The notes beneath the pieces are model-generated. The model was not told the DNA's origin. It was given only the letters and a program-made list of their open reading frames with translations, and searched no databases. A program made the position numbers and the translations under genes. Shown here piece after piece: positions 5,187 to 27,824 of a stretch of 33,696 bases of DNA (position 1 is its first letter; the number at the start of each line of letters is the position of its first letter). This stretch comes from a virus, in IMG/VR virus record IMGVR_UViG_3300025674_000185, positions 1 to 33,696 of that record. One strand, 5' to 3'.

Positions 5187-7988
5187 TTAGAATCCTTTTG
5201 CAATATAGTCAAATGTTCTTGAAACTGCTGTATCACTAGAGTTTTTAAAGGTAACATCAAAACCATTAATAGTTTTATTCTCTACTATAAAATAATCTCC
5301 TGTTGCCATATTTTCGCCTGTGATACCTACAGCATAATTAACACTTTTAAATGGATTTGTAAATGAAACAGTATAAGTTGTTGCACCAGATACTATATCA
5401 TTTCCACTAAATATTCTATCTGGCATATCAATAGTTACAGAAACTTCACTAATTACAGGAGTTGTTTGTTGATCTCTTGATCTTAAAAATAATCTAAATT
5501 TATAATATCTTGCTGTGTAATCTCCAATTACAAAATTTTTAAATTCTGTGTAAGTTGTACCATCATCAGATAAAGCTATTTCTAAATGAGCATTTGAGTT
5601 AGATGGAGAATCGCCATCAAATGAGCCTGTTGCAGAATCAAACAAGCTAAAACCTCTACCATCATCAAATAATTCATTAGGGTTTTCTGCAAACTGTGTA
5701 ATAGATGCTGTTACTCTTGAAGTATAAATTCCACCAATATCTATAGGTGCTGAGAATAAATATGTTCCATCTGAATTAAGATCAGTTAGTTTTAATGTAT
5801 CGTTTTCTAATGTTAAATTTGTTTTAGTACCAGAAAATGTAGGGTGTTCAGATTGAGTAGTTACTGCATTAAAGTTTCCAATAGCTGAGATATTAGTTGC
5901 TATAACAGTTGCATTTACTGAATAGTTTTCTAATTTATCAATCGCTTTGATTAAGTAACTTCCTGTTCTTGCTGGAACAGTAACACTCGTTGCTGGTCTT
6001 GATACTTTTTCTACTAATGAAACTGAGTTTTGCCATTCAGCACCACTTGTTTGTGTGGAATAACGAATTTGATAGTGTGATAAATCTACATCTGGTATTT
6101 GTTCCCATGATAAATGAGCATCTGAATTTACAATATTACAAGCAAAGTCTTCTACATCACTAGGTGGCTCAGTACTTCCTATAATAGTTCTTTGTGCAGA
6201 AACATAAGTTGATGAAATTCCAAGACTATTTACAGCTTTAACTCTTACATCATAAATAGCTTGTTCTTTAACATTTAAAACTCTATGAGTTAATCCTGTA
6301 CCTTGTGTGTGAATAATATAGTCTGAATCTGTACTTAATTTATATTCTACTTGGTAATAATCTACAAAACTATCTGTACTTGCACCTATAGTAATATCTA
6401 AAGCAACAAGAGGAGTTTGGTTATATTCAATTAAAGTATCTCCTAAAGTTAAACTTGCTGGTGGTTGTATATTAAATGGATTAGGTAAATTAGTTGTTGG
6501 AATTGTACTCGCTTGTGTTTTTGTTGCCCAAGTATAATGTGAATCTTGATGCTCAATTAAAGATAATGCTACTGTAAAATCTTCATTAAAAGTCATACCC
6601 AATACTCTAAATGGTTTTGCAGAAAATCCTAAAGAACTATGTGTAATATTTACTATGTCGCCTATTGTTAATTCATAAGCATTTAAATTAACTGTAATAC
6701 CTAAAGCTAAAGCCTCTCTTGATCTTCTTAAAATAACTTCTGCCATTTCTTCAGCTTGATATTGATTAGTTAATGTTGTGAATTGAAATCTACCCTCTAA
6801 TAAAAAACCACCATCAGCACTTTTCATTGTTTCATGCTGGTCAGCACTAGGCAAACCAGAATCATCTACAGGTGGCCATTGTACTTCATCAACTTGGTAA
6901 TTACGATCAGGATTAACAAAGCCAACTATAACTCTATTATACTTTTCGTTTTTACTAGGAGTAGATAATGAATAACCACCTAAAATGTCGTCTTCAGTAA
7001 GTGTGATAGTCGCTGTGCCTGTTGTTTCAATGACTAGGCTATATTTTCCTGATGCATAAGGTAAATATCCTCTACAACCCTTTATTAATTCTCTAACATT
7101 ATCTATTATGTTTCTTGATGTATCTAATGCTACATTTGTATCAAAGATATTAATATCATCTCCACCAGAATATGGTGTTACTTGTGTTTCACAAACTAAA
7201 GACGCGTCATAAAAAGATTGTAAATTTATTTCAGCAGTAGTTAATCCTTTTCCATATCTTTCATTAGTTAAATAGTCTAATAAACACCATGCTGGATTTG
7301 TAGAATAGCTTGGAGATTGCTCAACTAAACTTGCATTATAAGTTTTAATTTTTTTACCTTGTATTTTTGCTTGTACTTTTGGAACACCTGTAAAAGCATC
7401 AGAATTCCATTTAAATCTTATAGCTAAATAGCATAGTCCACTTAATTTATGATTAGAAGTCCAATTAGTTAATGTTGATAATAGTGTTGAGGCTGATTGA
7501 CCATCACTACCAAAATGTGGCTCTATTCTAATTAAACTTGTAGATTCTTTATAAAAATTACTATCAGAAATATTAACTTCTACTTCTGTTCCATCTGTTA
7601 AATCACTTGCCCAAGTAACTATTTTATCATCTATTCTAATTTCTGTAATATCGTTTATTTCTCCCTCAGCCATAACGATTGCCATATACAAATAGGTATT
7701 ATCAGTACCAGAAGTTTCCATGAACACTCTTGTTCCACCTGTAAGTCTTTCTCCATAAATTACAGGAATATTTGAATCATTAGACTGTTTGTTAATTAAT
7801 AATCCTCTTTCAAAATCATCAAATGAATTTGTTCCAAAATCTTCTATTTCAGGAACCTTTGGTCTTAATGCCCATGAAATAAAAAGAGTAACTCCTAAGG
7901 CTACCCAAGGATTGTTTATAAATGAAACTACCTTTGAAACTTTTTTAACTACTCTTGTTACACTTCTAACAAAACTTCCAAATCCCAT
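5187..7988 (-). CDS. J: Tail tip / central fibre protein (lambda J-like)
   Basis: 933 residues. The N-terminus has a basic segment and a hydrophobic stretch (NPWVALGVTLFISWAL), then IPVIYGERLTGGTRV and YLYMAIVMAEGEI, typical of phage tail proteins of the J / gp27-like baseplate hub type. Residues of about 200-470 carry the hub domain (CLLDYLTNERYGKGL; NIIDNVRELIKGCRG). Two fibronectin-III-like domains follow at about 510-610 and 615-705 (YYQVEYKL, HYQIRYST). The remaining C-terminus is beta-rich and is probably involved in receptor binding. It directly follows the minor tail gene at 7988 with a one-base overlap, the expected order for a siphovirus tail tip. Confidence 0.85.
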   Translation of the reverse strand: MGFGSFVRSVTRVVKKVSKVVSFINNPWVALGVTLFISWALRPKVPEIEDFGTNSFDDFERGLLINKQSNDSNIPVIYGERLTGGTRVFMETSGTDNTYLYMAIVMAEGEINDITEIRIDDKIVTWASDLTDGTEVEVNISDSNFYKESTSLIRIEPHFGSDGQSASTLLSTLTNWTSNHKLSGLCYLAIRFKWNSDAFTGVPKVQAKIQGKKIKTYNASLVEQSPSYSTNPAWCLLDYLTNERYGKGLTTAEINLQSFYDASLVCETQVTPYSGGDDINIFDTNVALDTSRNIIDNVRELIKGCRGYLPYASGKYSLVIETTGTATITLTEDDILGGYSLSTPSKNEKYNRVIVGFVNPDRNYQVDEVQWPPVDDSGLPSADQHETMKSADGGFLLEGRFQFTTLTNQYQAEEMAEVILRRSREALALGITVNLNAYELTIGDIVNITHSSLGFSAKPFRVLGMTFNEDFTVALSLIEHQDSHYTWATKTQASTIPTTNLPNPFNIQPPASLTLGDTLIEYNQTPLVALDITIGASTDSFVDYYQVEYKLSTDSDYIIHTQGTGLTHRVLNVKEQAIYDVRVKAVNSLGISSTYVSAQRTIIGSTEPPSDVEDFACNIVNSDAHLSWEQIPDVDLSHYQIRYSTQTSGAEWQNSVSLVEKVSRPATSVTVPARTGSYLIKAIDKLENYSVNATVIATNISAIGNFNAVTTQSEHPTFSGTKTNLTLENDTLKLTDLNSDGTYLFSAPIDIGGIYTSRVTASITQFAENPNELFDDGRGFSLFDSATGSFDGDSPSNSNAHLEIALSDDGTTYTEFKNFVIGDYTARYYKFRLFLRSRDQQTTPVISEVSVTIDMPDRIFSGNDIVSGATTYTVSFTNPFKSVNYAVGITGENMATGDYFIVENKTINGFDVTFKNSSDTAVSRTFDYIAKGF

Positions 7989-26790: not shown

Positions 26791-26891
26791 TTGGCTAAAA
26801 ACTCCCCTTTTTATTGAAAAAAAAGTATTTGCCATTTGTGTGTGTTTTTATAAGCTTTCTTTATAACTAGACTACGTGTAATTCGGTACTC

Positions 26892-27005
26892 GTCTTAAAA
26901 CATATAAAAACCAATTCAGAGCCCCAGAAGTTAATTCTAAGTTTTGACTGAGAAAAAATCTGTTTCATAATCTGGGTGGGTGCCTCAAAGAGTGTGTGTT
27001 AAGAC
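26892..27005 (+). ncRNA. Candidate structured leader RNA
   Basis: An outer stem GTCTTAA (26892-26898) / TTAAGAC (26999-27005), extendable by two pairs across one mismatch, encloses an inner stem CCCAGA (26923-26928) / TCTGGG (26971-26976). The element precedes the hammerhead in the same leader. It has a higher G/C share than its surroundings and no open reading frame. I cannot match it to a known riboswitch class. Confidence 0.4.
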
Positions 27006-27026
27006 CTACGATTTAGATATTTTAAT

Positions 27027-27090
27027 TTATAGTTTCTACAACCTTTAGCAAGTTGTACTGATGATGTTAGCTAAATACGAAAAACTATAA
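27027..27090 (+). ncRNA. Hammerhead ribozyme, type III
   Basis: Stem III: TTATAGTTT (27027-27035) pairs with AAACTATAA (27082-27090). Cleavage site: C27036 (H17) preceded by U16.1. Stem I: TACAAC (27037-27042) / GTTGTA (27052-27057). Core CTGATGA (27058-27064), one extra U (27065), a short stem II (G27066-C27078, U27067-A27077) and GAA (27079-27081). Loop I TTTAGC (27044-27049) can pair with loop II GCTAAA (27070-27075), a tertiary contact known from natural hammerheads. Cleavage would free a 5'-OH mRNA with a 68-nt leader before the first early gene. Departures from consensus are the extra U and weak stem II. Confidence 0.87.
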
Positions 27091-27104
27091 CTAGGAGAAA
27101 AAAA

Positions 27105-27628: not shown

Positions 27629-27733
27629 ATGAAAAAAATATTAGAAGTTTTAGAATATGTTTCTGTAGCTTTGATCTTTGCCTATTTTTTTTTAGGTGGT
27701 TTCAAATGGACTATAGATTATTTAACGATGTAA
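27629..27733 (+). CDS. Small membrane protein (34 aa)
   Basis: 34 codons: MKKILEVLEYVSVALIFAYF then FLGGFKWTIDYLTM. One transmembrane helix over residues 9-24. It begins 2 bp after the upstream stop; no strong ribosome site is visible, so it is probably coupled. Its last six bases (27728-27733) fall within the outer stem of the second hammerhead, so ribozyme folding and its translation may interfere. Confidence 0.6.
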   Translation: MKKILEVLEYVSVALIFAYFFLGGFKWTIDYLTM

Positions 27734-27801
27734 GACGAAAGGGGAATCATTTCTCCCCTCTATCTACTATGGCTAGTAGGTACTGATGATGTCAGCCACA
27801 T
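27728..27801 (+). ncRNA. Hammerhead ribozyme, type II
   Basis: Order: stem II 5' strand GAC (27734-27736), GAA (27737-27739), stem III AGGGGA (27740-27745) / TCCCCT (27754-27759), cleavage after C27760, stem I TATCTACT (27761-27768) / AGTAGGTA (27775-27782) with one U-G pair, core CTGATGA (27783-27789), extra U (27790), stem II 3' strand GTC (27791-27793). Stem II resumes outside an internal loop as ATGT (27728-27731) / ACAT (27798-27801). Loop I TGGC (27770-27773) can pair with GCCA (27795-27798) of the stem II internal loop, though A27798 is also used by the outer stem. Cleavage leaves a 64-nt leader before DUF932. Confidence 0.87.
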
Positions 27802-27824
27802 TAATATAACTAAAAGGAACGAAA

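Follow-up and report, generated by a model that had tools for sequence, protein, structure and literature searches.

The 33,696-nucleotide stretch of viral DNA analysed here (the window), which derives from a marine phage that probably infects the SAR11 bacterium Pelagibacter, carries at 27734-27801 on the + strand an element that, as read from its sequence, has every part of a type II hammerhead ribozyme (Table 1). This phage intergenic RNA almost certainly cuts itself, and there is high confidence that the hammerhead is real and catalytically competent. The kind of ribozyme is known, but in this case it recurs at fixed places across a whole phage group and has an unusual extra base within the catalytic core.

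Architecture and relatives of the intergenic element

The + strand of the element reads GAC GAA AGGGGA-AUCAUUUC-UCCCCU C / UAUCUACU-AUGGCU-AGUAGGUA CUGAUGA U GUC AGCCACAU, the slash marking the predicted cleavage site. The assignment to type II follows from the order of the parts, GAA, cleavage site, and CUGANGA, and from the loops that close stem III and stem I, stem II being open. The class core present in the window comprises (i) CUGANGA, (ii) GAA, (iii) the A15.1-U16.1 pair, formed by A27740 and T27759 in stem III, and (iv) H at position 17, whereas stem II, which in the usual but not strict core directly follows A9, is separated from it by the unpaired U27790. In addition, complementarity discloses a 5-bp pseudoknot between UGGCU 27770-27774 in loop I and AGCCA in the 3' tail, in competition with a possible ninth stem I pair, A27769-T27774. 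Such a loop I/3' tail pseudoknot belongs to the type II consensus (PMC3088659); among 12 relatives, the four pairs counted have standard pairs in 79% of their cells, and at one loop/tail pair both partners have changed, A-U replacing G-C.

Table 1. Features of the ribozyme locus in the window (all on the + strand)
Feature	Position	Strand	Details
Second hammerhead, type III permutation, operon leader	27026..27098	+	Structural scan; extra U present
34-aa hydrophobic ORF, upstream	27629..27733	+	TAA 27731-27733 abuts stem II
Type II hammerhead ribozyme, whole element	27734..27801	+	RF02276 (27733-27801) and R1 model (27734-27801)
Stem II 5' strand, GAC (11.3-11.1)	27734..27736	+	Partner 27791-27793
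Catalytic G12 A13 A14 (GAA)	27737..27739	+	Invariant in 35/35 distinct relatives; search partly demanded them
Stem III hairpin	27740..27759	+	AGGGGA 27740-27745 / TCCCCT 27754-27759, 8-nt loop
C17, predicted cleavage between 27760 and 27761	27760	+	Position 17: C 33, A 2 (35 distinct relatives)
Stem I hairpin, loop ATGGCT 27769-27774	27761..27782	+	TATCTACT 27761-27768 / AGTAGGTA 27775-27782, 8 bp
Catalytic C3 U4 G5 A6 N7 G8 A9 (CTGATGA)	27783..27789	+	Only N7 varies in 35 distinct relatives
Extra U (U10) between A9 and 10.1	27790	+	In 30/35 distinct relatives; register set by stem II covariation
Stem II 3' strand, GTC (10.1-10.3)	27791..27793	+	Pairs with GAC; covariation
AGCCA tail	27794..27798	+	Pseudoknot with loop I TGGCT 27770-27774
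Shine-Dalgarno-like motif AGGA, DUF932 gene	27815..27818	+	Sequence reading
DUF932 gene, 340 aa	27825..28847	+	Pfam PF06067, E 6.9e-7, 29.7 bits, cut-off 23

The Rfam type II model RF02276, run in permissive mode, matches 27733-27801 with 38.4 bits, a second search being in agreement; this is just above the gathering score of 37 bits and corresponds to E values of 1.4e-6 for a 301-base stretch and 1.6e-4 for the whole window against all 4227 families. The Rfam fast gathering run over the window returned no match, although the score exceeds the gathering cut-off. An independent covariance model, R1, built from 12 type II sequences of other phages with a longer stem III and with the window excluded, scores 27734-27801 with 66.5 bits (E 5.1e-17). 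Its matches comprise 50 elements in 57 sources, 35 of them distinct.

Relatives were gathered by two exact-pattern scans of IMG/VR, yielding 30 and 32 loci. When the 17-base pattern of the 3' strand, GTACTGATGATGTCAGC, was used alone, a control on viral and bacterial loci that is independent of stem selection, 28 of 30 viral loci displayed a complete type II ribozyme upstream. The same 17 bases matched 33 loci in bacterial genomes, about the number estimated by chance, and two of these pass as ribozymes, only one convincingly. The latter (L079, around 6336-6352 of an uncultured Clostridia MAG) appears to be a real type II hammerhead that shares the extra U and comes from well outside the marine phages. 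Among annotated phages, a DNA-level search disclosed no type II relative, its sole match being the type III leader of the Pelagibacter phage HTVC112P.

The predicted stems are upheld by covariation. The 12 R1 sequences show 46 two-sided changes compared with 16.1 after shuffling, with a covariation score of 0.476 versus 0.166. Across the 50 relatives (35 distinct), in an alignment that was fitted to the R1 model and so leans towards it, 96.8% of cells are paired, versus 77.9% when shuffled and at most 52% when slid, and 125 two-sided changes compare with 35.0 in shuffles, distributed over 14 of the 20 pairs. The signal is strong in all three stems: stem I is paired in 98.6% of cells, with two-sided changes in six of its eight pairs, and the middle pair of stem II is AU, CG, and GC in 25, 8, and 2 of the 35 distinct relatives, respectively. 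The catalytic bases other than N7 (T 32, A 2, C 1) are invariant in this set, an invariance that is partly built in, because most relatives came from a scan in which parts of the core and stems were prerequisites. When about 640 bases surrounding the element were compared between two near-identical contigs, L003 and L004, they differed at 6 positions; four of the six differences constitute two compensatory stem III swaps, from G-C to C-G and from A-U to G-C.

The original prediction had proposed a type II hammerhead at this site, an identity now backed by Rfam, the independent covariance model, covariation across 35 relatives, and gene context. The stems that it assigned (GAC-GAA, closed stem III, 8-bp stem I, and stem II closing the ends) agree with both the base-by-base reading and the covariation, and its cleavage site after C27760 appears correctly placed, as judged by the two models and the covariation. 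Its suggested search with the Rfam hammerhead II model succeeded, as detailed above, and its reading of the terminator-like hairpin at 27740-27759 as stem III holds, with no U run after 27759 on the + strand. Two features were missing from that account, the pseudoknot and the U27790 insertion.

The extra nucleotide and the competing fold

The extra U is present in 30 of the 35 distinct relatives and absent from five, and it constitutes a real insertion, since the stem II pair varies among AU, CG, and GC in register with the U omitted. The type III element in the leader of the window displays the same extra U. A comparable case is the (+) hammerhead of the viroid CChMVd, which carries an extra A (A10) between A9 and G10.1. 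According to the summary of De la Pena and Flores 2001 in PMC3705267, this A moderately lowers the trans-cleaving rate, C or G at that place is very harmful, and replacement of A10 by U makes trans-cleavage 3-4-fold faster. The viroid and phage ribozymes thus share a single-nucleotide insertion at this point, but the phage insertion is U instead of A and resides in a type II phage element rather than in a viroid. The phage elements carry the letter that is favourable in CChMVd, and the unpaired U27790 is an insertion that is tolerated and perhaps enhances the rate. Because a like insertion occurs in the active CChMVd hammerhead, and some relatives are without the U, U27790 marks a variant that keeps its membership in the class. 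The phage group shows natural conservation of a core insertion that had earlier been examined by substituting U in a viroid ribozyme.

Nested folding, a model that leaves pseudoknots and tertiary contacts outside, favours an inactive CUGAU/GUCAG hairpin over the hammerhead by about 3 kcal/mol (-20.9 versus -17.8) and gives stem II a probability of 0.05. Since this competing hairpin is favoured when the pseudoknot is left out, a fast ribozyme would have to depend on its folding kinetics or on the pseudoknot.

Operon layout and the leader type III hammerhead

The ribozyme occupies the whole gap between the 34-aa gene and the DUF932 gene, in agreement with the location originally proposed between a small ORF and DUF932; the accompanying labels, 'early operon' for the transcript and 'membrane protein' for the small ORF, are no more than plausible. 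The start codon of DUF932 lies 64 nt downstream of the cleavage site. The DUF932 protein is 67% identical to a protein of HTVC112P, and DUF932 relatives are encoded by 12 IMG/VR contigs. In several contigs the 34-aa ORF recurs, as family G, and immediately precedes the type II element. The spacing is tight. Among 44 elements, 40 have the end of the upstream stop codon 2-10 nt ahead of G12, and 43 are followed, 31-41 nt past the core, by the next start codon preceded by a Shine-Dalgarno-like motif, the remaining one leaving the contig.

In 26 tabulated contigs, some of them incomplete, the usual order comprises a type III element, variable small ORFs, a type II element, DUF932, and one or more variable ORFs, after which another type II element often precedes a constant gene series. 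The small ORFs in the slots between ribozymes are variable, and for some of them the set contains no relative, whereas DUF932 and the later genes are constant. Of ten records scanned lengthwise, all contain between one and three type II elements apart from the cultured relative HTVC112P, in which the scan gave zero type II matches, indicating that the element is not universal.

The claim that a second core occurs in another permutation also proved right: the leader element at 27026-27098 is a type III hammerhead, with stem III open and the order cleavage site, CUGANGA, and GAA that defines this type (PMC10085705). Its loop I UUUAGC pairs with GCUAAA, and the extra U follows CUGAUGA. The Rfam RF00008 search left this element at 27026-27098 undetected. 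Many distinct sequences of it occur in the relatives, with changes in stem I and stem III, and it is also found in HTVC112P. Two hybrid elements suggest a natural change of permutation: at 5130-5195 of L054 a type II ribozyme is built with a type III stem I and tail, and at 6532-6601 (-) of L028 a type II ribozyme has the type III tail.

Proposed role and alternative explanations

Hammerheads flanking phage genes are already known, several of which cut in vitro (three arrays) and one in E. coli (PMC3088659), and Perreault et al. 2011 proposed that such arrays cut long phage transcripts into gene-length mRNAs (PMC3088659). A cis-acting type II hammerhead that splits a rightward, probably early, transcript is likely to be the best explanation overall for the element studied here, and mRNA segmentation is, on balance, the favoured main role. 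According to the proposed mechanism, loop I would pair with the tail that follows stem II and so dock stems I and II, and cleavage in cis after C27760 would split the shared messenger. The upstream product, comprising the small ORFs through the 34-aa gene, would carry the stem III hairpin and a 2',3'-cyclic phosphate at its 3' end, whereas the downstream product, from DUF932 onward, would start with a 5'-OH right on the stem I hairpin. As the type II form leaves complete hairpins at both new ends, expression and decay of the gene blocks could be separated without loose ends. Product ends kept in hairpins would fit protection against end-dependent decay, and the DUF932 message may decay separately.

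The stop codon abuts the core, so a translation-gated version can be envisaged, in which a ribosome at the abutting UAA covers GAC-GAA and part of stem III, and cutting takes place only if the upstream gene is untranslated. A distance of 2-10 nt, as seen in 40 of 44 elements, falls well inside the ribosome footprint; compact phage genomes, however, place any intergenic element near a stop codon, and such gating is conjecture to which we assign a low probability. A broader scheme for the SAR11 phage lineage, in which hammerheads with U10 (one leader type III and one to three intergenic type II) punctuate the early operon beside variable slots and are gated by terminating ribosomes, is likewise improbable as a whole.

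Rather more doubtful is a recombination border, the conserved ribozyme sequences serving as homology for gene-cassette swaps with cutting secondary. Variation affects the genes that separate the leader type III element from the type II element and those past DUF932, while the ribozymes and flanking genes stay, and hybrids such as L054 and L028 -6550 fit such exchange, but the catalytic bases are kept, and the compensatory stem swaps indicate selection for structure, not sequence homology. The resemblance of stem III to a terminator hairpin and the predicted competing fold would also agree with a decayed or inactive hammerhead that persists simply as a hairpin, a terminator, or a stabiliser of the mRNA, which is nevertheless very unlikely, as the catalytic bases, pseudoknot, and stem II, all dispensable for a hairpin, are kept. 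An intrinsic terminator was rejected separately, the GC-rich hairpin lacking a U run on the + strand. Chance resemblance, conceivable given that CTGANGA is frequent in the window (28 matches), is refuted by the covariation and has a practically negligible probability in view of the E values of 1.6e-4 (Rfam) and 5e-17 (R1).

Compared with the type II hammerheads described previously (RF02276, PMC3088659), the segmenting ribozyme proposed here shares the permutation, core, short stem II, and loop I-3' tail pseudoknot, and the described elements likewise lie between phage genes, several per locus (PMC3088659). On the other hand, most members of the present phage group add a U between A9 and 10.1, and the group displays tight stop/start spacing, linkage to DUF932, and a type III element in the leader. 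The triple array around ardA of Agrobacterium tumefaciens (PMC3088659) similarly has several hammerheads flanking single genes and a proposed role in gene-length mRNA cutting, but the genes and hosts are different, and cleavage is documented there in vitro and in E. coli, whereas here it is predicted from sequence. In a literature search of partial coverage, no pertinent publication on hammerheads in pelagiphages came up, which does not in itself prove novelty. The present group makes the role for which bacterial viruses retain hammerhead ribozymes directly testable, since it offers (i) many natural variants with fixed gene spacing, (ii) elements with and without the extra U, (iii) two permutations per operon, and (iv) the type III element in a cultured relative, HTVC112P, which grows on Pelagibacter HTCC7211.

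Beside the ribozymes, an AACTAG/AACTAA stretch recurs ahead of the Shine-Dalgarno motif in the window and its relatives, for example at 27808-27813, with or without a hammerhead. In addition, a conserved, apparently structured noncoding leader RNA lies directly 5' of the type III element, at about 26870-27035 (+), the 3' end of which would be set by that ribozyme; it matches no Rfam family, and across 13 aligned loci two-sided changes occur in 9 of its 21 predicted pairs.
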